The position numbers and the translations under genes were made by a program. DNA of 48,829 nucleotides from a virus: positions 1 through 48,829 of the IMG/VR virus record IMGVR_UViG_3300032282_004821, one strand, 5' to 3'. Numbering within the stretch: the stretch's first letter is position 1; each line of letters begins with the position of its first letter. A model generated the notes under the pieces. That model did no database searches and was not told the DNA's origin. It worked only from the letters and a program-made list of their open reading frames with translations. Below, piece after piece: positions 8,565 to 23,897 of this stretch.

Positions 8565-10208
8565 ATGGGCTCAATGATAACAGTAGGTTACTCAACAAGA
8601 AAGTCAAATCCTGAATTTACAGAATACTTAAAAAAAAGTTCTGGATTTAAAAAAATAAATGTTATTGAAAAAATAAATAATGGTGAAAAATCATTATCTC
8701 AAATTTATAATGAAATATTGTCTGAGTCCACAACTGACATAGTTGTTTTTTGTCATGACGACATTTATTTTGACACACCCGGATGGTATTATAAATTATT
8801 AAAACATTTTCAAAAAACTGATTATGGTATTTTAGGTGTTGCTGGAACAACCAATATGTCAGAAACAGGTAGATGGTGGGAAGCCAATACAAGAAAAAAC
8901 ATGATTGGAATTGTTAATCATGAAAGTGGTGGTAAAAAATGGACATCAAAATATTCTGAAGATTTTAATAATGGTATTAAACAATCAGTAATTGTTGACG
9001 GACTTTTTATTGCAGTTAATAAACAAAGAATTAAAAGTGACTTTATTGAATCTTTCAAAGGATTTCACTTTTACGATATTTCCTTTTGTTTTGAAAACTA
9101 TATACAAGATGTTAAAGTTGGTGTCATTACAAATATCAGAATTACACATAAATCTATTGGCGAAACTAATGAACAGTGGGAAAAAAATAGAATTCAGTTT
9201 GTTGAAAAATATAAAAATAATTTACCGGCCAAATCGCCGTTTGACCCAAATAAAAAAATAAAAGTTTTATTATCTTGTTTATTTTTCAAAGAGTTTACTG
9301 GTTCAGAATTATATGTTTTTGAACTTGCTAAAAGTCTAATGAAACTTAATTGTAGTGTTACTGTATTATCTCAAATAGGAGGACCTTTAACAGACATGGC
9401 AAAAAAGATAGGAATTAAATGTTTGTCTTATGAAAATGCGCCGGGGTTTAAATTGGGTGATGGAGTTTGGTCATTTAATGGGCCAAATGGAAATGAAGTT
9501 TCAAAATTAAATTCTTTATATAAAATATCAGATGTTGATTTTGATATAATACATATTCAACATAAACCAGTTGTTGAAAGAATTATTAATATGTATCCTG
9601 AAATAGATATTATCTATACAATACATTCTGAGGTTATTGATTTAGAAAATCCAATAAAACATGATTCTATAAAAAAATACATAGCAATCAGGCCTGAAAT
9701 AAAAAAATATATGGAAGATTATTTTGATATTAATGGTGATTTAATTGAGGTAATATATAATCCAGTTGATAATGAAAAATTCAAACATAGTAATATTAAA
9801 GAAGAAGATTGTTTAGTTTTTGTTGGTACGATTGATTATTTAAGAGAAAAAACAATTAAAGATTTAGTTGAAAAAACAAAAGAAAGAGAAATGGAATTGT
9901 GGATAATTGGTCAAAATAAATCAAATTATTTACAAGACGTTTTACAAAATTCACATGTAAAACATTTTCCACCGACATGGAATGTTGAGCAATATATTAC
10001 AAAATGTAAAGAAACTGCAGGAGTTCAATTAGGTAGGACAACTATTGAAAGTTGGATGTGTAATAAACCATCTTGGATTTATAAAGTAGATTCTAATGGG
10101 GACATTTTAGAAATAATAAAAACTGAACCCCCTTCTGACATTGAAAAGTATTATTCAATGAATGTTGCTCAGCAAATAAAAAATGAATATATTAAAATAT
10201 TATCATGA
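8565..10208 (+). CDS. Two-domain glycosyltransferase (GT2-like + GT4-like)
   Basis: 547 residues. Residues 1 to about 225 look like a GT-A (family 2-like) domain: DIVVFCHDDIYFDTPGW supplies a DxD-like motif, and VIVDGLFIAVNK with FHFYDISFCF resembles the acceptor region. Residues about 230-547 look like a GT-B domain (IKVLLSCLFFKEFTGSELYVFELAKSL; LVFVGTIDYLREK; GRTTIESWMCNKPSWIY). A fusion of two transferases could make two successive linkages. The start ATG is preceded by an A-rich leader without Shine-Dalgarno. The 3' end overlaps the next gene by 4 nt. Confidence 0.7.
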   Translation: MGSMITVGYSTRKSNPEFTEYLKKSSGFKKINVIEKINNGEKSLSQIYNEILSESTTDIVVFCHDDIYFDTPGWYYKLLKHFQKTDYGILGVAGTTNMSETGRWWEANTRKNMIGIVNHESGGKKWTSKYSEDFNNGIKQSVIVDGLFIAVNKQRIKSDFIESFKGFHFYDISFCFENYIQDVKVGVITNIRITHKSIGETNEQWEKNRIQFVEKYKNNLPAKSPFDPNKKIKVLLSCLFFKEFTGSELYVFELAKSLMKLNCSVTVLSQIGGPLTDMAKKIGIKCLSYENAPGFKLGDGVWSFNGPNGNEVSKLNSLYKISDVDFDIIHIQHKPVVERIINMYPEIDIIYTIHSEVIDLENPIKHDSIKKYIAIRPEIKKYMEDYFDINGDLIEVIYNPVDNEKFKHSNIKEEDCLVFVGTIDYLREKTIKDLVEKTKEREMELWIIGQNKSNYLQDVLQNSHVKHFPPTWNVEQYITKCKETAGVQLGRTTIESWMCNKPSWIYKVDSNGDILEIIKTEPPSDIEKYYSMNVAQQIKNEYIKILS

Positions 10209-11365
10209 AAATCGGAGTTATTGGTGCCGAAAAAGAAGGGATTGCGTTCTCACTCATATGTAAAAAAAATGGATATGATGTGATGATTTCAGATGAAAAT
10301 GAAGATTTAATTTTTAATTTAAATCAAGGAGTTTATTTATCAAACGATAATAGTGTAAAAAAACTTTTATTTGAAAGTGACCCTTTAGAAACAACAACGT
10401 CAATTATAGATATAATAAAACATAGTGATATTATCTTTGTATTTGTGCAAACTCCTTTAAATATTGATGGCGATTATGATACAAAGAATGTTTTTGATGT
10501 GTTAAAATATTTTCATAATTGTTCTTCTTTAGATATTCCATTATATGACAAAAAATTTGTTGTTTGTTGTTCGACGAATATTGGTGAAGTAGAAGAAATA
10601 CAAAAAAGATTATCTATGTTCAGCATTCAAGTGGCATATAATCCATTTTTTGTATATGAAGATAATGCTGTAAAAGAAATTGAAGAGTCGGATATTGTTT
10701 TAATTGGAACTGAATTTGAATCATTATCAAATGATTTAATTAATTTATATCGCAAAATTCAAACAAAATCCATCAATGCATTTGTAATGTCCACAAAAGC
10801 GTCTGAGATGACCAAATTATCAATAAACTCTATGGTTGCTTATAAACTATCGTATTCTAATATGATAGGGGATATTGCAACTAAAATGGGGTTTAAAAGT
10901 GAAATGAATTTAATATTTAAAGCAATAGGTACAGATAAAAGAATTGGTGAAAAATCTTTAAATTATAATTTTGGATTTGATGGTTCACATTTGTATGGTG
11001 ATAATAAATCATTAAATCACTTTATAAAAAAAATAGAAATAGATAATAGTTTAATTCAAGGTGTTGAGGATTTTAATGAATCTCATTTGATTTTTTTGAA
11101 AAACTATTATTTGAATTTAAACCCAAATAAAACTGTCCCGTTTATTGTTGATGAATTAGGATTAAAAAAAACAAACGGTCTTGTTGAAAACTCTAAAAAA
11201 TATCAACTATGTGTTTCTTTACTAGAGGAAGGATATACATTAAATGTTATTATCAACGAAAAACCAACCAAAGAATTAAATAACTTAAGTGAATCTTTTA
11301 ACAATAAAATTAAATTTTTTAAAAGTGATGCACATTTAAACGGATATAAAATTAAATTAAATTAA
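10205..11365 (+). CDS. UDP-glucose/GDP-mannose dehydrogenase-like protein lacking catalytic residues
   Basis: 386 residues with the overall plan of nucleotide-sugar 6-dehydrogenases. An N-terminal Rossmann domain (KIGVIGAEKEG, a poor GxGxxG) is followed by VQTPL and a central helix with ASEMTKLSINSM and AYKLSYSN, equivalent to the conserved EMxKxxxN region. Key residues are gone. The segment aligned with GFGGSCFPKD reads GFDGSHLYGD, so the catalytic Cys is His262 and the Lys is Gly265. The PEFL Glu is replaced in NPFFV (Phe148). It is probably not an oxidising dehydrogenase and may bind a nucleotide sugar or act differently. It sits just before a UDP-GlcNAc 2-epimerase. Confidence 0.7.
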   Translation: MKIGVIGAEKEGIAFSLICKKNGYDVMISDENEDLIFNLNQGVYLSNDNSVKKLLFESDPLETTTSIIDIIKHSDIIFVFVQTPLNIDGDYDTKNVFDVLKYFHNCSSLDIPLYDKKFVVCCSTNIGEVEEIQKRLSMFSIQVAYNPFFVYEDNAVKEIEESDIVLIGTEFESLSNDLINLYRKIQTKSINAFVMSTKASEMTKLSINSMVAYKLSYSNMIGDIATKMGFKSEMNLIFKAIGTDKRIGEKSLNYNFGFDGSHLYGDNKSLNHFIKKIEIDNSLIQGVEDFNESHLIFLKNYYLNLNPNKTVPFIVDELGLKKTNGLVENSKKYQLCVSLLEEGYTLNVIINEKPTKELNNLSESFNNKIKFFKSDAHLNGYKIKLN

Positions 11366-11370
11366 AAAAT

Positions 11371-12465
11371 ATGGAAAATTTATTAAAAAAAACAGTAATA
11401 ACAATAACCGGTATTAGACCAGATTTTATTAGAATGTCTGAGATTTTTAAAAAATTAGACGTTAGTTTTAATCACATATTAATTCATACAGGGCAACATT
11501 TTGATAAACTATTGTCTGATGTATTTTTTGAAGAATTAGATATAAGGAAACCGGACTATAATCTTGAAATTGGTGGTATTGGTAAAGAACATTTTCATCA
11601 ATCAGCAGAATTATCTGTAAAAATAATAGAACTAATTAGAAATAAAAATTTGAATCCCGATTTAATAATTTTTTTAGGGGACTCAAATTCAGTTACATCG
11701 GCAATTCCTTTAAAAAAAGAAGGATATAAAATTGCCCATATAGAGGCCGGCATGCGTTCTTATGATAAAAGAATGTTAGAAGAAATTAATAGAATTGTGT
11801 GTGACCATTGTAGCGATTTTTTATTTGTTTATCATGAAAACTACAAAAAAAGAGTGATGAAAGAAAATATTAATCCAAAAAATATTTTTGTTGTTGGTAA
11901 TACAATAGTTGAGGTTGCAAAAAAAATGAAATTTGAATATCAATCAAAAAGAAACCAAATTATTCTTGATATTCATAGGCCTGAAAATTTTAAACATAAA
12001 AATAGAATGATTAAAATTTTCGAATTTGCGCAACAAATGTCAAATAATTATAAATTAAAAATTAAAATGATTGGATTTAAAAGAACTATTGATTATATGA
12101 ATGAATTTGGTATTGACCCATCATTATATAATATTGAAGTAGTTGGTTTGATGTCATTCAAAACATATATTGAATCGGTTTATAATTCTAAATTTATTAT
12201 TTCAGATTCAGGTACCGCCCAAGAAGAGCCATCTATATTTAATACTCCAGTTTTAGTACCAAGAGATTACACAGAAAGACCTGAATCTGTAGAAAATAAT
12301 TGTTCTTTTATGATTCCTATTGAAAATTTAACAAATGATGTTATTTTAAACATTAATAAATGGTTAATTGATATTTTTAATGGAAATAAAAAAATAGAAA
12401 CTGATTGGTTAGGTAACGGAACAACATCCGATAAAATAATTGAAATATTAAAATCGTCATTATAA
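11371..12465 (+). CDS. wecB: UDP-N-acetylglucosamine 2-epimerase (non-hydrolysing)
   Basis: 364 residues; interconverts UDP-GlcNAc and UDP-ManNAc for glycan synthesis in the cytoplasm. Family motifs are clear: GIRPDFIRM near residue 14, TGQHFD near 39, FLGDSNSV near 99, HIEAGMRSYDKRMLEEINR near 124, HRPEN, and the C-terminal SDSGTAQEEPSIFNTPVLV and RDYTERPE block. The length is close to the usual 360-380. The stop overlaps the next start by 1 nt. With a dehydrogenase-like neighbour this would look like a ManNAcA pathway, but that neighbour lacks its catalytic Cys. Confidence 0.88.
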   Translation: MENLLKKTVITITGIRPDFIRMSEIFKKLDVSFNHILIHTGQHFDKLLSDVFFEELDIRKPDYNLEIGGIGKEHFHQSAELSVKIIELIRNKNLNPDLIIFLGDSNSVTSAIPLKKEGYKIAHIEAGMRSYDKRMLEEINRIVCDHCSDFLFVYHENYKKRVMKENINPKNIFVVGNTIVEVAKKMKFEYQSKRNQIILDIHRPENFKHKNRMIKIFEFAQQMSNNYKLKIKMIGFKRTIDYMNEFGIDPSLYNIEVVGLMSFKTYIESVYNSKFIISDSGTAQEEPSIFNTPVLVPRDYTERPESVENNCSFMIPIENLTNDVILNINKWLIDIFNGNKKIETDWLGNGTTSDKIIEILKSSL

Positions 12466-13286
12466 TGAAAATATCTATAGTAACATCTTATTACAACAGA
12501 AAATCTCAATTTATTAATACTATTGAGACAATTAAACATTCCAAACAAATCGACAATACTGAATTAATTGTTGTTGATGATTGTTCGTCTCCTGAGCACA
12601 GGCTAGAAGATATTCTTGAAAAATATCCATTTATAAAATTAATTAGATTAGAATCTAAAGATAGATGGTATACAAACCCTTGTGTACCTTTTAATAAAGG
12701 TATTAAAGAGTCTTCTGGTGATATAATAGTAATGCAAAATCCAGAATGTTTACATGTTGGAGACATACTATCTGACTTAGTGAATAAAATAGATGATGAC
12801 AAGTATATAACTCAGGCGGTATATTCTTTAGATAAATTTAATACTGAAAAAATATCTAAATTAGATTATAATGATTCTAATGTTTTTGATAAAATCAAAA
12901 ATGAAATATTACCAATGAATAATTCAACTTATATTGCCGAAGGAAAAGACTGTTGGTATAATCATTCAAAATATAGAGCGGCATCATATCACTTTTTAGG
13001 AGCAATAACTAAAAATAATATGAATAAATTAAATGGTTTTGATGAAAGATATTCAAATGGGATTGGTTATGATGACGATGAACTATTGTTTAGAATTAAA
13101 TTACTTGGATTGAATATTCAAATACATGATGACCCATTTGCAATTCACCAATGGCATTATAGTGAAAACAATTTTTTTGCAAAATCACCTGACATTGGAG
13201 CAGCAATTAGTAAAAACAATAATTTGTTTATTAATGTGACTTCAAAATTAACAAATCCTTTTGTTAATAATGATATAAATAATTAA
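12465..13286 (+). CDS. Glycosyltransferase family 2
   Basis: 273 residues, GT-A fold. The N-terminus KISIVTSYYNRKSQFINTIET, then ELIVVDDCSSPE and GIKESSGDIIVMQNPE (replacing the usual DxD region) are typical of GT2. A C-terminal acceptor segment YSNGIGYDDDELLFRIKLLGL carries the ED-like catalytic acidic cluster. Likely cytoplasmic, substrate unknown. It overlaps the epimerase stop codon by 1 nt and belongs to the same operon. Confidence 0.8.
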   Translation: MKISIVTSYYNRKSQFINTIETIKHSKQIDNTELIVVDDCSSPEHRLEDILEKYPFIKLIRLESKDRWYTNPCVPFNKGIKESSGDIIVMQNPECLHVGDILSDLVNKIDDDKYITQAVYSLDKFNTEKISKLDYNDSNVFDKIKNEILPMNNSTYIAEGKDCWYNHSKYRAASYHFLGAITKNNMNKLNGFDERYSNGIGYDDDELLFRIKLLGLNIQIHDDPFAIHQWHYSENNFFAKSPDIGAAISKNNNLFINVTSKLTNPFVNNDINN

Positions 13287-13303
13287 AATATTAATTCCTC
13301 ATA

Positions 13304-14812
13304 ATGAAAATAATCGGATTTACACAAATAAGAAATGAATTATCAAAAGGTAATTTAATAAATTGGCTAAGACAAATGTTTGAAATTTGTGAATATGTAT
13401 ATATATACGACCAAAATTCTGACGATGGTAGTAAAATAGTTTATAAAAACTACCCTAATTTAATAGTAATTGAATCAGAAATTAATGATTTTAAAAACGA
13501 AATAACATGTAAAAGTATATTGTTAGAAAAATTATTAAAAGAACATCCCGATACCGATTTTATTCTTTGGTTAGATGGTGATAGTTTATTAGATAGAAAT
13601 TTAACTAACAATAATAACAAACTAATTAATTCAATTTGTGAACAAGCGCAAAAAAATAAAATAGACGGTATTTTATTTAAACATTATAATTTGTGGAGAA
13701 GTGATGTGTATTATAGAATAGATAATAGTTATCATAATTTAAATAATGGTGTATGTGCACTATGGAGAAATAATGGAAATTTATCTTTTAATAAAACAAA
13801 TGGATTGCATTTACCTCAATACCCAAATGGCATTAAGAAAATGGATAGAATTGATTTTGGTATAATACATAGAGGGTTTGCAACTGATTATCAAATAATG
13901 ACAAAATATGATGTTTATAAATCTTATGGCCAAAATGGATGGGATTTGGATAGGTTATTAGATGAATCTACATTAGATGTGGTAAAAATAGATGAAAATA
14001 CATTACCAAAATGGTTTGAAATAACTGATAAAATAATACCAACAGAAAAAGAAAAAATAATAGACATTTATAATAAAAGAACAAATAAAAATATTGAAAT
14101 CATATCTTTAATATTCAAGTCGGTAGATTATTTGAAATTAATATATAATGAATTAAAAAGCGATAAATGTAAGTTAGATGGATGGGATGTTTCAGTTAGA
14201 ATTGTTGCTAATGATGCAACTCCAGAAGTTATTGAAAATCTAAAAACACTTGATATTCCGTATACAATATATAATGACCCAAAACCTAATGATTATTATT
14301 TAAATCGTGTTTATCGTTGTTTTAATCATGCAGGTAAAACCAGTAAATCTGATAATATTTGTTTTGTTAATTCAGATATGGTTTTTAGTGAGGGATGGTT
14401 ATTTAATTTATTAAAACATCATGATGGTATTAATATCCCATGTTCTAAACTTGTTGAAAGTGGAAAAATGTTAAGTGGTACTCATGCAATTTCTTATAAT
14501 TGCGGAAAAACACCAAAAGATATAAATTATACATTATGGAATGATTTTGTTAAAGAAAATAAAACCGATGAGATAAAAGATAGTGGTTTATATATGCCAT
14601 GCATATTTGAAAAAAATCGTTTTATTGAGAGTGGTATGTACCCTGAAGGTAATATTTATTCTGATGGAAGTATTGGTACTTTAAATGGTGGCGTTATTCA
14701 AAGTGGGGATGATTGGTATATTAGAAAATTGGAAAAAGAATATAATATGAAACATGTTACCGTATTTGATTCATTGGTTTATCATATACAGGAGGGTGAA
14801 AAAGATGAGTAA
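13304..14812 (+). CDS. Two-domain GT-A glycosyltransferase
   Basis: 502 residues with two transferase-like halves. Residues 1 to about 260 contain YVYIYDQNSDDGS and FILWLDGDSLLDRN (a DxD-type motif), resembling the GT2/GT92-like group. Residues about 265-502 contain WDVSVRIVANDATPEVIENL, ICFVNSDMVFSEGWL (again NSD in the DxD position) and SGDDWYIRKLEKEY. A fusion of two GT-A domains is likely. The last 8 nt overlap the start of the following methyltransferase. Confidence 0.65.
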   Translation: MKIIGFTQIRNELSKGNLINWLRQMFEICEYVYIYDQNSDDGSKIVYKNYPNLIVIESEINDFKNEITCKSILLEKLLKEHPDTDFILWLDGDSLLDRNLTNNNNKLINSICEQAQKNKIDGILFKHYNLWRSDVYYRIDNSYHNLNNGVCALWRNNGNLSFNKTNGLHLPQYPNGIKKMDRIDFGIIHRGFATDYQIMTKYDVYKSYGQNGWDLDRLLDESTLDVVKIDENTLPKWFEITDKIIPTEKEKIIDIYNKRTNKNIEIISLIFKSVDYLKLIYNELKSDKCKLDGWDVSVRIVANDATPEVIENLKTLDIPYTIYNDPKPNDYYLNRVYRCFNHAGKTSKSDNICFVNSDMVFSEGWLFNLLKHHDGINIPCSKLVESGKMLSGTHAISYNCGKTPKDINYTLWNDFVKENKTDEIKDSGLYMPCIFEKNRFIESGMYPEGNIYSDGSIGTLNGGVIQSGDDWYIRKLEKEYNMKHVTVFDSLVYHIQEGEKDE

Positions 14813-15449
14813 CGAGAGAATACAAATTAATATGGAAGAATTTATAAATTTATCTAATAAATTTATAAAAACTGAAGAAATAAAAAATATAATGGAAATT
14901 GGCTCTTTAGATGGTGCCGATTCATTATTTTTTAAATCAAAATATCCTAAAGCGAATGTATTTTGTATTGAGGGATTACCCGATAACTATAACACTTATT
15001 TAAAAGATTTAACTACAATAATACCAATAAATGCAGTTATTTCTGATTATGATGGCGTTATAAAATACCATAAAAAAAACATAAACGGTATACATGGTAT
15101 TTTAGATAGGGGTAAAAAATATGGCAGTGAAACTTTAGAATTACAATGTTATACAATAAAAAAAATTTGTGATGACTATAAAATAAATTCTTTAGATTTA
15201 GTTAAAATTGATGCTGAGGGTGCAACATTTGAAATTTTAAATAGTATGGGTAATATGTTAAAAACAATAAAAATAATGCACATAGAGACTGAATCATATC
15301 CATTTTTTATTAATCAAAAATTACATGATGAAGTTTATGATTTTTTAGTTAATAATAAATTTACTATGGTAGATTTTTCAAAAGTTAAAATATCTAATGA
15401 CGGGTACCAACATGATTCTGTTTGGGTAAACAATAATGTTTTAAAATAA
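14805..15449 (+). CDS. FkbM-family SAM-dependent methyltransferase
   Basis: 214 residues from ATG 14805; an in-frame earlier ATG at 14754 would add an unlikely hydrophobic leader inside the upstream gene. The SAM-binding motif is IMEIGSLDGADSLFF. It is followed by NVFCIEGLPDNY, and the hallmark FkbM segment LDLVKIDAEGATFEIL near residues 125-145. It likely O-methylates a sugar. Unusually for this window, GGAGGG at 14791-14796 lies 8 nt before the ATG, which may be a real ribosome-binding site or chance within the upstream coding sequence. Confidence 0.8.
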   Translation: MSNERIQINMEEFINLSNKFIKTEEIKNIMEIGSLDGADSLFFKSKYPKANVFCIEGLPDNYNTYLKDLTTIIPINAVISDYDGVIKYHKKNINGIHGILDRGKKYGSETLELQCYTIKKICDDYKINSLDLVKIDAEGATFEILNSMGNMLKTIKIMHIETESYPFFINQKLHDEVYDFLVNNKFTMVDFSKVKISNDGYQHDSVWVNNNVLK

Positions 15450-15462
15450 TATTTAAAAAATA

Positions 15463-16380
15463 ATGAAAAAAGGTTGGATAGTAAACGACACTCTAACGTG
15501 TATACCCGGAACAAAAACATTTTGGCACGATTTATTAGATTGGATACCCGAATTAAAAGATAAATGTAATGGGTTTACAGAGTTTTCAATTTTACCAAAA
15601 TATATAGAAAATGAATGGTTAATTAATGAACGTCCTGATTACATTATTAGAAATGCAACATATTTTAGAAAACTTAAACTACCTGTTAAAACTATAAGTT
15701 TACTACAAGATTTATCACCAAATAATCAAGAACAAATAGATGTGTGTAATAATTCTAATATTGTTGTTTTCAATTCTCCATATACCAAATCACACTATGA
15801 AAATAAAATAACTTCCCCATCAATAATGATACCAATTGGTGTAGATTTTAATAAATTCATACCTATAGAAAAAAATTTTAATGAAGAATTAGGTATTTTA
15901 AATAATTCAATTTTATTTATAGGCTCATCATCTTATAACCCAAAAGGTTTTGATATTATGCTGGACATTATTAACAATACTGATTATAATTTTTGTTTAG
16001 TAATGAAAGACGATTATCAATCAAATAATCCAAGAGTTAAAGTATTCAATAGAATTAACCATGACACACTCATTAAAGTTATTAATTCTTGTGAATTATT
16101 AGTATGTACTTCAAGGGAAGAAACATTACATCTTGCGGGCGTTGAAGCGGCTTCCTGTAACTTACCTTTAGTTACATCCAATGTGGGAATATATTATAAT
16201 TTAGAGAATGGTGCTTGGGGTAGAAATATAAAATCTTTTGATTATTTAGATTTTATCCATGAAATAGAATATGTGAAAAATAATTTAAGCACATTTAGTC
16301 CAAGAAATGAATTTTTAAATATGGGATTAGACACAGAAACATGTAAAAAAAATTGGATTGAACTAATTAAAAATATTTAA
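15463..16380 (+). CDS. Glycosyltransferase, GT4/group 1
   Basis: 305 residues, GT-B. The donor-binding half is clear: NNSILFIGSSSYNPKGFDIMLDI, then SCELLVCTSREETLHLAGVEAASCNLPLV, which holds the E-x7-E motif of GT4 enzymes, and SNVGIYYNL. The N-terminal acceptor half is short (GWIVNDTLTCIPGTKTFWHDLLDW). Cytoplasmic, substrate unknown. It starts 13 nt after the FkbM gene and ends before a 41-bp AT-rich gap with no recognised promoter. Confidence 0.8.
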   Translation: MKKGWIVNDTLTCIPGTKTFWHDLLDWIPELKDKCNGFTEFSILPKYIENEWLINERPDYIIRNATYFRKLKLPVKTISLLQDLSPNNQEQIDVCNNSNIVVFNSPYTKSHYENKITSPSIMIPIGVDFNKFIPIEKNFNEELGILNNSILFIGSSSYNPKGFDIMLDIINNTDYNFCLVMKDDYQSNNPRVKVFNRINHDTLIKVINSCELLVCTSREETLHLAGVEAASCNLPLVTSNVGIYYNLENGAWGRNIKSFDYLDFIHEIEYVKNNLSTFSPRNEFLNMGLDTETCKKNWIELIKNI

Positions 16381-16421: not shown

Positions 16422-16949
16422 ATGAATAAATACGCATATGGAAATTGGCATCATTCTGACTTTATAGTTCAGTTAGTAACTTCAATAAATTGTCAAACTT
16501 ATCTTGAATTAGGAATATACGACGGCTCTACTTTAGAAAGAGTTAGTAAAATTGTGCCAAGAGTAATTGGTGTGGACATTAAAGATATCAGAAAAAATAA
16601 AAATATTTCTGAATTTCATTTATCAAACACAAATGATTTTTTAAATAATTTTTACGATAAAGTTGATGTTGTTTTTATAGATGCCGACCATTCTTTTGAA
16701 TCAGTTAAATCAGATTTTGAAAATGTTTTAAAAAATTTAAATGAATTTGGTGTAATAATTTTACATGACACTGACCCAGTAAGTGAAAAATATTTGGATA
16801 AGGGGTATTGTGGTGATTCATATAAAATGATTGATTGGATAAAAGAAAATCATTCTGAAATGGATATATTAACATTACAAATTTCTGAAGCCGGGTTAAC
16901 TATAATAAAACGTTCCCATGAACGTAGAGTAAATAAATTTATACTATGA
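16422..16949 (+). CDS. Class I SAM methyltransferase (Methyltransf_24-like)
   Basis: 175 residues. The SAM motif YLELGIYDGSTLERVSK, then VIGVDIKDIRKN, VDVVFIDADHSFESVKSDFENVLK and GVIILHDTDPVSEKY fit the cephalosporin-hydroxylase/rhamnosyl O-methyltransferase-like group. A sugar O-methyltransferase is the likely role in this setting. Its stop overlaps the start of the epimerase gene by 4 nt. Confidence 0.8.
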   Translation: MNKYAYGNWHHSDFIVQLVTSINCQTYLELGIYDGSTLERVSKIVPRVIGVDIKDIRKNKNISEFHLSNTNDFLNNFYDKVDVVFIDADHSFESVKSDFENVLKNLNEFGVIILHDTDPVSEKYLDKGYCGDSYKMIDWIKENHSEMDILTLQISEAGLTIIKRSHERRVNKFIL

Positions 16950-17902
16950 ACAAAATATTAGTTGTTGGAGGCGCTGGTTATATTGGCGGATTAACTTGCG
17001 ATTATTTAATTAGAGATGGTTTTGACGTAACCGTATACGATAACTTGTTATATGAAAACAGGTTTTTAAAAGAAATATCATTCATTTATGGTGATATTAG
17101 AGACACAAAAAAATTATACAAAATATCTGAAGATTTCGATGTTATTGTTTTAATGGCTGCACTTGTTGGAGACCCAGCATGTAGTATTGACCCAATATTA
17201 ACAGAAGAAATAAATTTTCAAGCAATTAAAAATTTATGCGATGTTATATCACCAGATAAACATTTAATTTTTATGTCAACATGTTCTGTTTATGGAACAC
17301 AAGATGGATTATTAAATGAAGAAAGTGAAACAAACCCGTTATCCTCATACGCATCCACCAAATTAAAAGCGGAAAAATATGTTTTAAACAGAGGTGGTAC
17401 AATATTCAGATTAGGAACAGTATTTGGATTAGGCGACACATACTCAAGATTAAGAATGGATTTGGTTGTAAATGTGTTGACAATGAAATCAATTAAATAT
17501 GGTGAGATTACCATTAATGGAGGAGAACAATGGAGGCCAATAATTGCGGTTAAAGATATTGCAGAATACATTGTAGAAGCATGTAAAGAAAAATATATGG
17601 GAATATTTGTAATATCATTAGAAAATGTCATTATTAAAGAATTAGGCGAAAAAATTTCAAAACTAATACCAAACACAAAAATAAATTATGTTGATATATC
17701 ATTTCAGGATGCCAGAAATTATCGTGTTGACAATTCTAAAGCTTTAAATACTTTTAAATATAAACCAAAAATTACTGTAGAAGAAGAAGTTAGTAGAATG
17801 ATTAAAATATTTTTTGAAAATAGGGTTGATAACCCTGAAGATAAAATTTACCATAATGGAGCTTACTTAAAAAATAAAAAAGAAAATAACGAATCAATAT
17901 GA
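16946..17902 (+). CDS. NAD-dependent nucleotide-sugar epimerase/dehydratase (extended SDR)
   Basis: 318 residues. The N-terminal cofactor motif is VGGAGYIGG (GxxGxxG), then YGDIRD, LMAALVGDP, and the active site: STCSVYG supplies Ser/Thr and SSYASTKLKAEKY, near residue 135, supplies the YxxxK pair. The C-terminal half binds the nucleotide sugar (GGEQWRPIIAVKDIAEYIV). Likely a UDP- or dTDP-sugar 4-epimerase or dehydratase; exact reaction not decidable from sequence. It overlaps both neighbours by 4 nt. Confidence 0.85.
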   Translation: MNKILVVGGAGYIGGLTCDYLIRDGFDVTVYDNLLYENRFLKEISFIYGDIRDTKKLYKISEDFDVIVLMAALVGDPACSIDPILTEEINFQAIKNLCDVISPDKHLIFMSTCSVYGTQDGLLNEESETNPLSSYASTKLKAEKYVLNRGGTIFRLGTVFGLGDTYSRLRMDLVVNVLTMKSIKYGEITINGGEQWRPIIAVKDIAEYIVEACKEKYMGIFVISLENVIIKELGEKISKLIPNTKINYVDISFQDARNYRVDNSKALNTFKYKPKITVEEEVSRMIKIFFENRVDNPEDKIYHNGAYLKNKKENNESI

Positions 17903-18318
17903 ATGAAATAAAAATATTAAATGGCGGATTATCAATAGACGATAGAGGTTCTGTAAAATTTGTAAATGATTTTAACTTTATTGGTGTTAAAAGATTTTAT
18001 CAAGTAGAAAATCATAGACAAGGATTTATTAGAGCATGGCACGGACATAAAAAAGAAGGTAAATATGTTTACGTTACAAATGGGACGGCATTAATTGGGG
18101 TTGTTGATATGGAAACAGAAAAAATAAATAAATTTATACTAAGTTCAAAACAACCAAAAATATTGTATATCCCTGAAGGAAATTATAACGGATTTAAATC
18201 ATTAGAAGATAATACGTCAATCATATTTTTTTCAACATCAACAATAGAAGAAAGTACCGGTGATGACATAAGAATGCCATATGATAAATGGAATATATGG
18301 GAAGAAGAATATAGATAA
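17899..18318 (+). CDS. dTDP-4-dehydrorhamnose 3,5-epimerase-like cupin
   Basis: 139 residues, RmlC/WxcM-like cupin. The strand pattern DDRGSVKFVNDF, FIRAWHGHKKEGKYVYV and the C-terminal EESTGDDIRMPYDKWNIW are typical of RmlC-like nucleotide-sugar epimerases and isomerases. The WHGH segment would hold the catalytic His. It is shorter than full RmlC (about 180), closer to the FdtA/WxcM isomerases. Placed between an SDR epimerase and an RmlD-like reductase, so it probably remodels a 4-keto sugar. Confidence 0.75.
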   Translation: MNEIKILNGGLSIDDRGSVKFVNDFNFIGVKRFYQVENHRQGFIRAWHGHKKEGKYVYVTNGTALIGVVDMETEKINKFILSSKQPKILYIPEGNYNGFKSLEDNTSIIFFSTSTIEESTGDDIRMPYDKWNIWEEEYR

Positions 18319-18330
18319 AATAATAATAAT

Positions 18331-19152
18331 ATGAAAATATACATTTTAGGTTCAACAGGAATGTTAGGTAGATATGTTTCAAGATACTTACAACAGTATC
18401 ATGACATTATTGAAATAAGTAGAGAAAAAGATGGGTTCGATGCGTCATTAATGACCGAACAAACTTTATTAGAAATTATAAATAAGTTTGAAATTCATGA
18501 GAATGATGTTATTATAAATTGTATTGGAACTATAAAACCGAGAGTAGACGAATTGGGAGATTTAGTTTCAATTAAAGTTAATTCAGTCTTTCCAAGACTT
18601 ATTGCGAATTTGTGTGAGGATAAAAAAATTAATTTAATTCATCCAACAACTGATTGTGTTTATTCAGGTAATAAAGGTTCATACTCTGAAGATGATAATT
18701 ATGATGTTCACGATGTTTATGGAATGAGTAAAGCATTGGGAGAACCAAATAATTGTACAATAATTAGAACATCCATAATTGGTGAGGAATTAAATAATAG
18801 TCGTTCACTTATAGAGTGGATTAAATCACAAAAAGGAAATACAGTATTTGGGTATACTAATCATTATTGGAATGGAATGACTTGTTTACAATTTGCCAAA
18901 ATTTGTAAACAAATAATAGAAGAAAATTTATATTGGAAGGGTATAAAACATTTTTATTCTAATTCAGTATCTAAAAAAGAATTGGTAGAACTTGTTGGAA
19001 ATATATATGACTTAAATTTAACTGTAACTCCAAAAGAAACTCCAATTAAATGTGATAGAACTTTATCAACAAAATATGATACAATTCAATTGTATAATAT
19101 TCCTACATTAGAAGAACAGATTAATGATATGAAAAATTTTAAATTAAATTAA
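18331..19152 (+). CDS. dTDP-4-dehydrorhamnose reductase-like SDR
   Basis: 273 residues. The Rossmann motif is YILGSTGMLGRYVS, then DVIINCIGTIKPRVDELG, NLIHPTTDCVYSG and the YGMSKALGE active site (YxxxK near residue 130). This is the RmlD layout, in which a 4-keto-deoxysugar nucleotide is reduced. With the preceding RmlC-like and SDR genes it makes a short deoxysugar pathway. RmlA- and RmlB-type functions could come from the nucleotidyltransferase at 20339 and the SDR at 16946, or from the host. Confidence 0.8.
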   Translation: MKIYILGSTGMLGRYVSRYLQQYHDIIEISREKDGFDASLMTEQTLLEIINKFEIHENDVIINCIGTIKPRVDELGDLVSIKVNSVFPRLIANLCEDKKINLIHPTTDCVYSGNKGSYSEDDNYDVHDVYGMSKALGEPNNCTIIRTSIIGEELNNSRSLIEWIKSQKGNTVFGYTNHYWNGMTCLQFAKICKQIIEENLYWKGIKHFYSNSVSKKELVELVGNIYDLNLTVTPKETPIKCDRTLSTKYDTIQLYNIPTLEEQINDMKNFKLN

Positions 19153-19179: not shown

Positions 19180-19830
19180 ATGAATTTAATAATAAATGGA
19201 AAATTTGTTAATGTTATTGAATATGAAACTGATATTGCCGGATTGAAATTTAGACCTCAATTTGATTCGCAATATAATAATGACGCCGATTGGGAATCAT
19301 TTACTTTACCTCACACACAAGAGGTTTCTCAAGGAAATTATAATCTTGTAAAAGAAATTGCAACAAATTATATGACACATGGTATTATGGAAATTGGTGT
19401 TCATAGAAATAATGAAGGCTCTTTTACAAATGCTCTTTTAAGTAACAAACCAGACAATATTCCATATCTAGGTGTGGATATTGAAGACAAATCATATTTG
19501 AATAATGAGTCAAAAAAAATATTCACAATTAAAGAAAATTCGTATAATCAAAGAACCGTTAGAAACTATGCTAAAAAAATAGGGTTAGAAAAAATATCAA
19601 TACTTTTTATAGATGGTGAACATTCTTTAAATGAAACAATAAATGATTGGATGTATTCTGATATGTTATCAGATAATGGTATTGTAATAATTCATGACAC
19701 AAATGGACATCCAGGACCATTTGTTATTATGGAATCAATTGATAATACAAAATATAGATTAGAAAAATATTTTCAAAATGAGGACGACTACGGTCTTGGG
19801 ATTGCATATAAATTAAATCAAAACTTATAA
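19180..19830 (+). CDS. Class I SAM methyltransferase
   Basis: 216 residues. The SAM motif IMEIGVHRNNEGSFT, the following YLGVDIEDKSYL, and ISILFIDGEHSLNETINDW with GIVIIHDTNGHPGP put it in the CmcI/Methyltransf_24-like group. The first 60 residues are an extra segment of unknown role. Likely sugar O-methylation. It begins 27 nt after the reductase. Confidence 0.75.
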   Translation: MNLIINGKFVNVIEYETDIAGLKFRPQFDSQYNNDADWESFTLPHTQEVSQGNYNLVKEIATNYMTHGIMEIGVHRNNEGSFTNALLSNKPDNIPYLGVDIEDKSYLNNESKKIFTIKENSYNQRTVRNYAKKIGLEKISILFIDGEHSLNETINDWMYSDMLSDNGIVIIHDTNGHPGPFVIMESIDNTKYRLEKYFQNEDDYGLGIAYKLNQNL

Positions 19831-19855: not shown

Positions 19856-20287
19856 ATGATATTAATATCACACAGAGGAAACGTAAACGGAAGAATAGTA
19901 GAATCCGAAAATAAGCCAGATTACATAGAAGATACTATTAAAATGGGATATGATGTTGAGATTGATGTATGGGTTGTTAATAATAAGTTTTATTTAGGCC
20001 ATGACAAACCGATTTATGAAGTCGATGTTTTATTTTTAACCAACCAAAAACTATGGTGTCACGCTAAAAATTTAGACGCCCTATTAAAAATGAAATATCA
20101 TAATATAAATTATTTTTGGCACGAAAATGATGAATTTACTCTTACATCGAAAAATTACATATGGAGTTATCCAAGAAAAGAAAGTTGTGAAAATACTATT
20201 GTGGTTATGCCCGAAATGTTTGATACCAAAATCAATAAATGTGTGGGTATTTGTTCGGATTTTATAGAAAATTACAAAAACTACTAA
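19856..20287 (+). CDS. Compact glycerophosphodiester phosphodiesterase-like protein
   Basis: 143 residues. The start ILISHRGN (His6, Arg7) and the segment GYDVEIDVWVVNNKFYLGHD (Glu35, Asp37, His49) correspond to the catalytic HR and ExD...HD of GDPD/PI-PLC-like TIM barrels. It is much shorter than a full GDPD domain (about 230-250), so the barrel is either cut down or partial. It sits directly before a sugar nucleotidyltransferase. It may act on a phosphodiester-linked sugar or polyol; this is inference. Confidence 0.6.
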   Translation: MILISHRGNVNGRIVESENKPDYIEDTIKMGYDVEIDVWVVNNKFYLGHDKPIYEVDVLFLTNQKLWCHAKNLDALLKMKYHNINYFWHENDEFTLTSKNYIWSYPRKESCENTIVVMPEMFDTKINKCVGICSDFIENYKNY

Positions 20288-20338: not shown

Positions 20339-21058
20339 ATGGTAAACGTCATAATCCCAATGGCCGGTGCTGGAAAAAGATTTTCTGATGTTGGTTATAC
20401 AATACCAAAACCATTTATCCCTGTTTTTAAAAAACCGATGGTTCAATCGGTTGTTGAAAATTTAAATATTGATGGGAAATTTATTTTTATTATTCAAAAA
20501 CAACATTCCGTAGGAAACAATTTAGAAATTTTTTTAAATAGTATTAAGCCCGGATGTATAATAATTTCAATAGACGAATTAACAGATGGACCAGCTTGTA
20601 CGGCCTTATTGGCGGAAGAATACATTGATGATAATCCATTGATTATTGTTAATTGTGACCAAATGATACATGATTTTGATGTAAATAAATTATTAGAATT
20701 TAGTGAAAAGAATAATGCTGATGGTATTTTAGGTGCATTTATTTCATCATCAAAAAAGAATTCTTATATGAAGTTAGACCCTCATGGAGAAGTTACCGAA
20801 ATAAAAGAAAAAATTGTTATTAGCAACATTGCAACAAACGGATTACATTTTTGGAAAAATGGAAAAGATTTTGTATATTCTGCCAAAGAAATGATTAACT
20901 TGGAAGAAAAATATAATAACGAATTTTATATTGCCCCAACTTATAACCACCTAATAAAAACCAATAAAAAAATATTACCATATTTTTATAATCTACATTT
21001 TCCAATAGGAACTCCGGAAGATTTAAAAATTTATCAAAATTTATATGGACATAATTAA
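20339..21058 (+). CDS. Sugar-phosphate nucleotidyltransferase
   Basis: 239 residues; NTP_transferase family, activates a sugar 1-phosphate with an NTP. The signature is IIPMAGAGKRFSDVGYTIPK (Gly-rich loop, catalytic Arg and Lys), then FIPVFKKPM, LTDGPACTALLAEEY and IIVNCDQMIHDF, whose Asp is a metal ligand. The size suits RmlA-like or related enzymes. A 51-bp gap with only AT-rich sequence precedes it. It ends 1 nt before the cupin gene. Confidence 0.85.
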   Translation: MVNVIIPMAGAGKRFSDVGYTIPKPFIPVFKKPMVQSVVENLNIDGKFIFIIQKQHSVGNNLEIFLNSIKPGCIIISIDELTDGPACTALLAEEYIDDNPLIIVNCDQMIHDFDVNKLLEFSEKNNADGILGAFISSSKKNSYMKLDPHGEVTEIKEKIVISNIATNGLHFWKNGKDFVYSAKEMINLEEKYNNEFYIAPTYNHLIKTNKKILPYFYNLHFPIGTPEDLKIYQNLYGHN

Positions 21059-21059
21059 A

Positions 21060-21365
21060 ATGGAAACTATGATGGGCGGATGGTTCATAGGAAACTTTGA
21101 ACCTTCGGCATATAAAACAGACCAATTTGAGGTTTGTTATAAACATCATCTTAAAGGAGAAAAATGGGACACTCATTATCATAAAGAAGGAACTGAAATA
21201 AATTATTTAGTTAACGGAAAAATGATTATTCAAAATAAGGAATTAAATACAGGAGATATATTCATTTTAAAACCTTATGAAATTGCTGACCCTATTTTTA
21301 TAGAGGATTGTACGGTATTAATTGTTAAAACTCCATCAGTAAGTGGAGACAAATACATTATTTAA
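21060..21365 (+). CDS. Small cupin-domain protein
   Basis: 101 residues from ATG 21060 (ATG 21045, inside the preceding gene, would add five residues). Single cupin barrel: KGEKWDTHYHKEGTEINYLVNGK is cupin motif 1, with two His and a Glu as likely metal ligands, and LNTGDIFILKPYEIADP is motif 2. It could be a sugar isomerase, a dioxygenase-like enzyme or a binding protein. It is packed between the nucleotidyltransferase and the RuBisCO-like gene, with 1-nt gaps, so joint function is likely. Confidence 0.75.
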   Translation: METMMGGWFIGNFEPSAYKTDQFEVCYKHHLKGEKWDTHYHKEGTEINYLVNGKMIIQNKELNTGDIFILKPYEIADPIFIEDCTVLIVKTPSVSGDKYII

Positions 21366-21366
21366 T

Positions 21367-22551
21367 ATGATAAATATTTTTAGAAAAGAGGTAGATAAAG
21401 AAAAATATTTTATTGTTACATATTACTTAGAATCTCAAAGCAATTTGAGAGATGCATCTTGGAATTTAGCGATAGGTCAAAGTGTTGGTAATCCAAATAT
21501 GAGAAATCAGTGGGAAACAGATGAATTGTTTGAAAACCATTCTTGCATTATTTTAGACGACGAACAACAATTAAAAACACTTTATAAAGGAATTGTAAAA
21601 ATAGCATTTCCAATTATCAATATAGATTTTAAAACTGATGGTATTTCACATTTACTAGTTAATATTATGGGAGGACAAATGGATATTGATAACATCAATA
21701 AATGTTCCGTCATTGATATTGAATTTCCAAAATCAGTAAAAGATTGTTTTTTAGGTCCGAAATTTGGAATTAATGGTATTAGAGAATATACAAAAGTTTT
21801 TGATAAACCATTATTAGGAGCAATCATAAAACCAAAAACAGGAATCTCACCAAAAATTCTTTTAGAAATGGTTAAAGAATTAGTTGAAGGTGGGGTTAAT
21901 TTTATAAAGGAAGATGAAATAATGAGTAATCCTTCTTTTTGTAAAATAGAAGAAAGGGTCCCATTAATAATGGATTATCTAAAAGATAAAAATGTAATTT
22001 ACTGTGTTTCAATTCACTCCGATTATCCATACATAATAGATAGAGTTAAAAAAGTGTATGAATTAGGTGGTAATGGAGTTCACGTAAATTTTTGGTGTGG
22101 TATTGGAGTATACAAAGCAATTAGAGAATTAGACCTCCCAATATTTGTCCATTTTCAGAAATCTGGAGATAAAATTATAACTAATAAAAATCATGATTTT
22201 CATATTGATTGGAGAGTTATATGTAAATTGGTTGGAATGATGGGGGTTGATTTTATACACGCAGGTATGATTGGAGGATATTATAAGTGGGATGAAATTG
22301 AAACAATAGATGCCGTAAAAATTTTAAATGAACATAATGTAATGCCAGCATTAAGTTGTGGATTTCATCCTGGATTAACTAAATGGGTTACAGATAAAAT
22401 TGGTGTTAATTATATGTCAAATGTTGGTGGTGCAATTCACGGACACCCTGATGGTACCACAGATGGGGCAAAAGCTATGAGACAAAGTATTGATGGCGTT
22501 TACGGAAAAGAATATGAAAGAGCCATAGACAAGTGGGGTAAAAACAATTAA
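21367..22551 (+). CDS. RuBisCO-like protein (large-subunit fold, RLP)
   Basis: 394 residues from ATG 21367 (GTG 21343 would overlap the cupin gene). Homology to RuBisCO large subunit is clear: GAIIKPKTGIS, GGVNFIKEDEIMSNPS, FIHAGMIGG, LSCGFHPG and VGGAIHGHPDGTTDGAKAMR. By spinach numbering it keeps N123 (N99), K175 (K155), K177 (K157), the carbamylated K201 (K181), D203 (D183), E204 (E184), H294 (H262), H327 (H298) and S379 (S330). It loses E60 (G37), T65 (N42), W66 (P43), R295 (F263) and loop-6 K334 (Y305). So metal binding and enolisation look possible but carboxylation does not. The C-terminal GGxIHGHPDG block resembles form III more than form I. Length is slightly short (usual 400-480). 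It lies between sugar-nucleotide genes and phoH. Substrate unknown; a phosphorylated keto-sugar is plausible. Confidence 0.9.
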   Translation: MINIFRKEVDKEKYFIVTYYLESQSNLRDASWNLAIGQSVGNPNMRNQWETDELFENHSCIILDDEQQLKTLYKGIVKIAFPIINIDFKTDGISHLLVNIMGGQMDIDNINKCSVIDIEFPKSVKDCFLGPKFGINGIREYTKVFDKPLLGAIIKPKTGISPKILLEMVKELVEGGVNFIKEDEIMSNPSFCKIEERVPLIMDYLKDKNVIYCVSIHSDYPYIIDRVKKVYELGGNGVHVNFWCGIGVYKAIRELDLPIFVHFQKSGDKIITNKNHDFHIDWRVICKLVGMMGVDFIHAGMIGGYYKWDEIETIDAVKILNEHNVMPALSCGFHPGLTKWVTDKIGVNYMSNVGGAIHGHPDGTTDGAKAMRQSIDGVYGKEYERAIDKWGKNN

Positions 22552-22572: not shown

Positions 22573-23307
22573 ATGAGTAGACAACCAAAAAAGTTTCCAA
22601 CACAAACACCAACAACTGAAGGTGTTGTAAAAAAAACAAAAAAACAATTAATTAACAGTATAATTAAGAAAAAAACAAAAGATAAATTTTTAAGTGAAAG
22701 TCAAAAAGAATATTATGATAAATTAACTAAAAATCAAATCACACTTTGTTCAGGACCTGCCGGAGTTGGTAAAAGTTATATAGCCATGAAATGTGCTGTT
22801 GACCTTTTAATTGACCCTGAAACATCATACGAAAAAATAATTATTGTACGTCCAGCAGTTGAAGCTGAAGAAAAACTAGGTTCATTACCCGGTAATGTTG
22901 AAGAAAAATTAGACCCCTATATTTTCCCATCATATTATCTACTAAATAAAATTATTGGTAAAGAAGTTAGAGAAAAATTAAAAGAAATTGAAGCAATTGA
23001 AGTTTTTGCATTAGCCTACATGAGGGGTATGAATATTGATAATTCAATATTAATATTTGAAGAAGCTCAAAATTCAACTCCTAGCCAAATGAAACTTCTT
23101 TTAACCAGGATAGGATTTAATTCAAAGTTTTTTATCTCAGGAGATTTAGAACAATTTGACAGACATAAAGATAAAACACAGACAGGTTTGTGGGACGCAT
23201 TACATAAGTTTCAAAACATGAATGACGTTGCAACATTTGAATTTAAATCTGAAGATATTGTAAGAAATCCATTAATAACACAAATTTTAAAAAGATATGA
23301 AGAATGA
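22573..23307 (+). CDS. phoH: PhoH-like ATPase
   Basis: 244 residues. The Walker A motif GPAGVGKS is near residues 61-68. Then come IIVRPAVEAEEKLGSLPGN, the Walker B segment ILIFEEAQNSTPSQMKLLLTRIG near 158, and SGDLEQFDR. These are diagnostic of PhoH, an ATPase often carried by marine and T4-like phages, with a suggested RNA-related role. A basic N-terminal tail of about 40 residues precedes the core. The stop overlaps the next start by 4 nt. Confidence 0.93.
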   Translation: MSRQPKKFPTQTPTTEGVVKKTKKQLINSIIKKKTKDKFLSESQKEYYDKLTKNQITLCSGPAGVGKSYIAMKCAVDLLIDPETSYEKIIIVRPAVEAEEKLGSLPGNVEEKLDPYIFPSYYLLNKIIGKEVREKLKEIEAIEVFALAYMRGMNIDNSILIFEEAQNSTPSQMKLLLTRIGFNSKFFISGDLEQFDRHKDKTQTGLWDALHKFQNMNDVATFEFKSEDIVRNPLITQILKRYEE

Positions 23308-23897
23308 GAATCGGAATTGAATTAAATGGTGTGTTAAGGGATACTTTAAAAAAAATTCAACAAGAATATGAAAAATGGTATATAGATAATCCATTTAAAG
23401 AAAAAAGTGAATTTGAATATAAAGTTATTTCTGATTTAACCTCATTAAATATAATGAACCATTTATCATTTAAAAATGATGAGGAGCTTTATGATTTTTT
23501 ATATAAAGAACATACAATGGAGATTTTTGGTCATGCTGGTTCTGTAGAAAATTCTGGAATGATGGATTTAAATGACTTTTATTTAAATATGAGAGACTAT
23601 CATGACATTTTAATTGTTTCAGATGAAATTGGAAAATCAAAACCCGCATCTTTATTTTTTATATCTAAATTTGGATGTTTGGTGGAAACAATAAAATTTT
23701 ATAGTGAATTTACAATTAATTCTATGTGGAATTCAATAGACATTTTACTTACTGCAAATCCTAACCTATTATTAAATTATCCAAAAGATAAAGAAGTTAT
23801 TAAATTTAATACTTCATATAACAAAGAAATTGAAACTAAAAACTCAATTTCTAATTTAAAAGAATTAACAAACAAAATTAAAGAATTATATGATTGA
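23304..23897 (+). CDS. HAD-like protein with degenerate active site
   Basis: 197 residues. The N-terminus RIGIELNGVLRDT resembles HAD motif I (DxDGVLxD), but the two aspartates are Glu6 and Asn8. HDILIVSDEIGKSKPASLFFISKFG resembles motif II/III (Ser, then Lys). The motif IV area IDILLTANPNLL lacks the acidic pair. A catalytically dead or altered HAD-fold protein is the best reading. It is coupled to phoH by overlap. Function unknown. Confidence 0.5.
   Translation: MRIGIELNGVLRDTLKKIQQEYEKWYIDNPFKEKSEFEYKVISDLTSLNIMNHLSFKNDEELYDFLYKEHTMEIFGHAGSVENSGMMDLNDFYLNMRDYHDILIVSDEIGKSKPASLFFISKFGCLVETIKFYSEFTINSMWNSIDILLTANPNLLLNYPKDKEVIKFNTSYNKEIETKNSISNLKELTNKIKELYD

Follow-up and report, generated by a model that had tools for sequence, protein, structure and literature searches.

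RuBisCO is known for carbon fixation, and RuBisCO-like proteins (RLPs) for sulfur salvage and apiose catabolism. What, then, would an RLP do in a virus, in the midst of glycan genes? The question is raised by the stretch of DNA analysed here (the window, 48,829 bases of a virus record, G+C content 28.6%), in which such a protein is encoded. A family profile search revealed major capsid and portal families in the window; head maturation protease and terminase families, a PhoH gene and an extended stretch of glycan genes are present as well. The first-pass annotation had spoken of a T4-like phage, and the capsid and portal families fit this description, although RLPs of the same kind are also found outside phages, in bacterial genomes. 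On the minus strand, positions 19-3309 encode a protein of 1096 aa that contains long Thr-Pro repeats and is perhaps a tail fibre or adhesin-like protein. The genes leading up to the RLP are the following.

8565..16380, plus strand: glycan genes including glycosyltransferases (Pfam matches; placed by context, pathway membership putative)
10205-11365, plus strand: UDP-glucose/GDP-mannose dehydrogenase-like gene (Pfam match), within the preceding group
11371-12465, plus strand: UDP-GlcNAc 2-epimerase-like gene (Pfam match), within the same group
16946-17902, plus strand: NAD-dependent epimerase/dehydratase (PF01370, 2.5e-32), upstream nucleotide-sugar gene
17899-18318, plus strand: RmlC-like (PF00908, 9e-11), upstream nucleotide-sugar gene
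18331-19152, plus strand: RmlD-like (PF04321, 3.6e-18), upstream nucleotide-sugar gene
19180..19830, plus strand: methyltransferase of a cluster (cluster 7) that recurs beside the RLP (Methyltransf_24, 4.6e-5; cluster profile, 4.4e-73)
19856..20287, plus strand: short GDPD-like phosphodiesterase, 143 aa (phrog_34507, 3.3e-25; HR / E / ExD / GHD residues conserved)
20339..21058, plus strand: RmlA-like sugar-phosphate nucleotidyltransferase (PF00483, 1e-13; phrog_3980, 1.4e-59)
21045..21365, plus strand: small cupin (phrog_24762, 3.9e-33), overlapping the end of the nucleotidyltransferase and ending one base ahead of the RLP
21367..22551, plus strand: RLP, 394 aa, ATG start one base past the cupin stop, open frame intact

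An in-frame GTG at 21343 would provide an alternative start for the RLP, adding 8 aa. The name cupin is based on weak similarity and on a relative so annotated in a P. aeruginosa plasmid (NZ_CP017294.1); H35, H44, H46 and E51 are conserved in the family. The same plasmid carries phosphodiesterase, HAD, nucleotidyltransferase and cupin genes of the same kinds, in a glycan cluster without RLP. The GDPD-like family has seven invariant residues (H6, R7, E18, N19, E35, D37, H49), and its model (pLDDT 96.6) has the GDPD 2pz0 as top fold match, a weak one (E 0.049). Proteins of this family (140-150 aa) have no Pfam match, are far shorter than the usual GDPD barrel and occur in over 550 viral stretches. 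Downstream of the RLP, positions 23304-23897 encode a protein whose start is HAD-like ('MRIGIELNGVLRDTL'), apparently with a substitution at the usual first catalytic Asp; it has no Pfam match.

The RLP matched PF00016 (RuBisCO_large) with an E-value of 3.2e-34, and a phmmer search of PDB sequences gave type III Rubisco (1.5e-37) and MtnW (2.2e-36). An AlphaFold (AF2) model built on 39 sequences displayed the full RuBisCO fold (pLDDT 91.1, pTM 0.90). Taken together, these matches and the modelled fold put the homology to RuBisCO far above chance. Foldseek comparison of the model with the PDB placed type III Rubisco first (TMq 0.88; Thermococcus 3a12/3kdo, and 8dht), followed by Geobacillus MtnW (2oem, TMq 0.85). 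No RuBisCO-like match to the model was found in a viral structure library. As modelled, the frame thus encodes a real RuBisCO-fold protein, a form IV-like RLP in the broad sense, which bears out its earlier naming as a RuBisCO-like protein. The gene is under strong purifying selection, with dN/dS of about 0.05-0.16: dN was 0.03 and dS 0.56 against its relative in L012, and dN 0.13-0.16 and dS 1.0-1.8 against those in L001, L002 and L010.

We then asked which active-site residues are kept, using an alignment with form I, II and III RuBisCO, MtnW and OiaX and, for conservation, 153 distinct members of the clade to which the RLP belongs. RuBisCO residues carry their spinach numbers and were mapped onto the RLP through the form I row of the alignment. 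K155 and K157 (equivalent to K175 and K177), K181, D183, E184 and S330, all listed as kept in the first-pass annotation, were invariant (153/153), and H262 was retained in 150 of the 153. H298, equivalent to H327, is indeed His in the window protein and in 120 members but is not fully conserved, the other 33 having Gln. Residues of the phosphate site are also kept, S330, G332, G354 and G355 corresponding to S379, G381, G403 and G404. The replacements reported for E60, T65, W66 and K334 (by G37, N42, P43 and Y305, respectively) were each found in 153/153 sequences; at F263, which replaces R295, 150 members have Phe or Tyr, and none of the 153 has the R295 equivalent. One assignment had to be dropped. 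N99 had been read as the retained N123 of RuBisCO, but it sits four columns upstream and is mostly Q, I or V in relatives; the alignment puts G103 at the N123 position, with Gly in 153/153, which adds a further loss. G380, missed previously, is replaced by Cys (C331) in all members. The complete set of residues invariant over the 153 sequences is G37, N42, P43, G103, K155, K157, K181, D183, E184, Y305, S330, C331 and G332.

Judged from these residues, the Lys-Asp-Glu metal/carbamate site is intact, and carbamylation and Mg2+ binding can be predicted. R295 is lost whereas the K175/G381/G403/G404 side is retained, which suggests that the substrate is a monophosphate. The protein could in principle still function as a RuBisCO, fixing CO2 or recycling nucleosides in the manner of form III enzymes: its best database scores go to type III RuBisCO, with which it shares the whole fold, the KPK and KxDE motifs and the phosphate-site residues. 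However, it lacks the equivalents of E60, T65, W66, N123, R295 and K334, most of them invariantly, neither the loop-6 Lys nor R295 being restored by the alignment; its rubisco_III score is 183.7 for a cut-off of 497, it falls outside the carboxylase clade, and it lies in a glycan-gene context. As proposed earlier, the residues argue against carboxylation, and we consider a working RuBisCO exceedingly improbable. The disappearance of several RuBisCO catalytic residues could also mean that the RLP has ceased to be an enzyme and plays a structural or regulatory part in the cassette. Nevertheless, neither the metal-site residues nor the two active-site lysines vary, even in distant relatives, and the low dN/dS likewise speaks against this, making it a very unlikely explanation.

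To place the RLP among known families, a tree was built with 22 sampled clade members plus carboxylases, OiaX-type RLPs and MtnW; a single sequence (L144) stood in as a possible relative of the R. rubrum-type MTRu-1-P isomerase and C. tepidum-type RLPs, the R. rubrum RLP itself being left out. All 22 members formed one clade with a support of 100/100, separate from carboxylases (98/97), from OiaX-type RLPs (100/99) and from MtnW. Membership of the carboxylase, MtnW or OiaX families was rejected on the basis of profile scores below cut-offs, the residue pattern and this separate position.

These data bear on two activities described for other RLPs. The first is that of a methionine-salvage enolase (MtnW/YkrW, acting on DK-MTP-1-P) or of a 5-methylthioribulose-1-phosphate isomerase, which would recycle methylthioadenosine. 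MtnW is one of the closest proteins of solved structure and shares with the RLP the metal site, an incomplete CO2-fixing set and the change of E60 to Gly. However, K98 of Geobacillus MtnW, presumably the catalytic base, aligns at G103/Q104, where the clade has Gly followed by Gln, His or Asn and never Lys (153/153), and KGM of the MtnW row is KPK in the RLP. The corresponding NCBIfam equivalog scores were 154.9 for a cut-off of 409 and 133.8 for 513.6 bits, and in a survey of 84 loci the commonest neighbours included no gene recognised as one of methionine salvage. There is thus little chance that the RLP serves methionine salvage. The second activity is that of the OiaX/OiaC-type RLPs of apiose catabolism, which act on 3-oxo-isoapionate-4-phosphate (PMC6302742). 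A decarboxylase or carboxyl-transfer enzyme of this kind, working on a beta-keto sugar-acid phosphate, would shorten the sugar, for example to C4. Sugar-phosphate chemistry, presumed for the RLP, and Gly at the N123 position, seen in both OiaX rows and in the phage clade, are common to the two, and a UDP-sugar dehydrogenase-like gene lies upstream of the RLP. Against this, the RLP clade lies outside the OiaX group and the OiaX NCBIfam score was 143.8 for a cut-off of 700; loop 6 differs, and positions 379-381 read GSG or SSG in OiaX and SCG in the RLP. Sampled OiaX-type genes have catabolic neighbours, mostly adjoining four-carbon acid sugar kinase or VOC genes, neither of which was noticed among the conserved neighbours here. 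We regard such an activity as unlikely.

How widespread is the clade? Sampling relied on pattern-seeded scans, the best 80 matches being taken per scan, and the viral contigs are fragments. Scanning IMG/VR with the alignment turned up members in at least 344 stretches; when a distant member served as query, a second group appeared, about 60-75% identical to that member. None of the 50,697 phage records of INPHARED had an RLP match. Among bacteria, the RLP was found in one of 380 genomes of the phylum with the Patescibacteria hit, in three of 297 of the SAR11 order and in one of 295 of the Bacteroidota class sampled; the remaining matches in these genome sets were at most 34% identical, and those classified were type III RuBisCO-like or OiaX-like. 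The clade is rare in bacteria and mostly viral. SAR11 and phage RLPs interleave in the tree; as drawn, the deepest branch is a SAR11 copy, and a further two group with a phage.

We next surveyed the gene neighbourhood, in 84 loci and then in 157 distinct RLP loci. Besides the RLP, the nucleotidyltransferase was present in 151 of the 157, no more than three genes away in 142. Of the same loci, 106 also held a cupin, 100 the GDPD-like protein, 88 a recurrent family that matches nothing in Pfam and 49 the cluster 7 methyltransferase. A distant clade typified by L083 kept the nucleotidyltransferase in 30/33 loci, the cupin and GDPD-like genes being mostly absent. Reciprocal loci were examined as samples, namely the best 80 matches of a GDPD scan and the 20 loci found by a cupin scan. 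The former gave 70 distinct GDPD-anchored viral loci, of which 60 held the nucleotidyltransferase and only five the RLP. The RLP is thus an optional branch of a wider nucleotidyltransferase module and not necessarily the step that precedes nucleotidyl transfer. These counts led us to reject the idea of an obligate four-gene cassette, as GDPD and nucleotidyltransferase genes mostly occur without RLP and the L083-like clade mostly does without cupin and GDPD. Clustering of neighbours in loci lacking the RLP revealed no single substitute for it; judged from protein starts, these neighbours were mostly glycosyltransferase-, methyltransferase- and epimerase-like.

The first-pass annotation knew of no assigned role for an RLP in a T4-like phage. 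What the survey adds is a context, a recurring nucleotide-sugar cassette that is also present in SAR11 and Patescibacteria. On one long SAR11 contig (L126), the RLP lies among Glycos_transf_4, two Wzy_C and epimerase genes, and farther along the contig are alanine-dehydrogenase-like and transhydrogenase-like ones; on another (L127, from G623), it lies beside GT17/GT61 genes, between gyrB-like and lepA/pheT-like genes. The housekeeping gene names on both contigs were read from protein starts. On the second contig two different nucleotidyltransferases flank the RLP, and a GDPD-like gene is present. The Patescibacteria RLP sits in a cluster of glycan-related appearance (L081). On a 307-kb viral contig, a phosphomannomutase-type (PMM) gene adjoins the RLP (L207:7253-7960).

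The neighbourhood leaves room for the same enediol chemistry taking place downstream of the nucleotidyltransferase or in parallel with it, for instance on a second sugar, the RLP being co-inherited with the whole glycan cluster. The frequent occurrence of the nucleotidyltransferase/GDPD module without RLP fits this arrangement, as does the presence of two nucleotidyltransferase types in some loci. The converse situation, an RLP without nucleotidyltransferase, is rare, and the two genes usually remain close together, which holds for the distant clade and for bacteria as well. We hold a downstream or parallel step to be improbable. The fixed linkage, which extends to bacterial chromosomes, is indirect neighbourhood evidence, consistent with an RLP that feeds the nucleotidyltransferase.

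Relatives of this nucleotidyltransferase in cultured Synechococcus phages provided a further line of evidence. In Bellamy (L135:4832-5986) and SynMITS9220M01 (L134:3832-4986), they are fused to RpiB (PF02502, 4e-32 and 4e-33), and in S-SKS1 (L140:4001-5425) to DHBP synthase (PF00926, 5e-65). All three fusions are annotated only as 'phosphatase' or DHBP synthase. HAD_2 fusions were found in S-CAM9 and B23, and HAD-nucleotidyltransferase fusions occur in RLP loci too. The fusion-bearing cultured phages have no RLP. A tree of the nucleotidyltransferases placed the S-SKS1 domain with RLP-linked ones (SH-aLRT 98), on a long branch, and the S-CAM9 and B23 domains in another RLP-linked group. RpiB and DHBP synthase act via enediols of ribulose-5-phosphate, enolising it first, and RuBisCO-fold enzymes use a Mg2+/carbamyl-Lys centre to enolise theirs. 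The simplest picture common to these fusions and to the RLP loci would be that, in several phages, an enediol-forming enzyme makes the sugar phosphate supplied to the nucleotidyltransferase, the RLP being that enzyme here. We also considered whether a single 'slot' is filled strictly by either the RLP or one of RpiB and DHBP synthase; this is weakened by L050, where a free-standing DHBP synthase-like gene (L050:8565-9170) lies shortly downstream of the RLP.

An enolase- or isomerase-type step on a sugar phosphate, as originally suggested, remains the best reading of the residues and of the nucleotide-sugar gene context. We infer that the RLP, a non-carboxylating member of the RuBisCO superfamily as judged from its residues and its place in the tree, is probably an enolising isomerase or epimerase of a sugar monophosphate that feeds nucleotide-sugar synthesis. 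In the proposed mechanism, a dimer would bind Mg2+ through carbamylated K181 with D183 and E184, and would remove a proton beside the carbonyl of the sugar monophosphate to give an enediolate. Reprotonation at another position would make the enzyme an isomerase, epimerase or tautomerase. The product, either directly or via the cupin, a HAD phosphatase/mutase or the GDPD-like enzyme, would then be converted by the nucleotidyltransferase into an NDP-sugar, and neighbouring glycosyltransferases (and methyltransferases) would place this sugar on a glycan, either host lipopolysaccharide/O-chain or a virion glycoprotein. That the end use is a surface glycan appears likely; that the substrate is a pentulose phosphate is a doubtful guess.

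Similar surroundings have been described. In pelagimyophages, genes for O-chain sugars and for glycosyltransferases lie in a 'host recognition cluster' presumed to modify the O-chain of the host (PMC7029224); cupin sugar isomerases, PfkB (sugar) kinases and nucleotidyltransferases occur in cyanophage clusters (PMC7824862). Cupins, nucleotidyltransferases, glycosyltransferases and epimerases thus surround the RLP as they do in these lipopolysaccharide or host-recognition clusters; the text of PMC7824862 contains no mention of RuBisCO, and that of PMC7029224 none of ribulose. In the Global Ocean Sampling (GOS) study, many RuBisCO homologues from the sea were reported to fall on new branches that do not conserve N123, H327 and four further active-site positions (Yooseph et al. 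2007; PMC1821046). N123 and, in part, H327 are changed in our clade also, so that, going by the published residue description, it may be the marine GOS branch. Such sequences go by the name 'IV-GOS'. The literature searched, which omits most subscription journals, contained no earlier description of a phage RLP, although an earlier report is possible, and, with the same coverage, no role of the RuBisCO superfamily in nucleotide-sugar biosynthesis.

The interest of this clade lies in its presence in hundreds of phage contigs, its tie to one nucleotidyltransferase and its occurrence on SAR11 chromosomes as well. It is conceivable, though we would stop short of calling it probable, that we are dealing with a widespread and mostly viral RuBisCO-fold clade in nucleotide-sugar biosynthesis, isomerising or epimerising a sugar monophosphate that the adjacent nucleotidyltransferase activates, and perhaps the source of the unassigned marine RLP branch recorded in ocean metagenomes from 2007 onwards. 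If so, that branch would become directly testable through two small enzymes, marine phages would acquire a defined enzymatic handle on glycan make-up, with superinfection exclusion or receptor change as possible outcomes, and the chemistry of the RuBisCO superfamily would gain surface-sugar biosynthesis.
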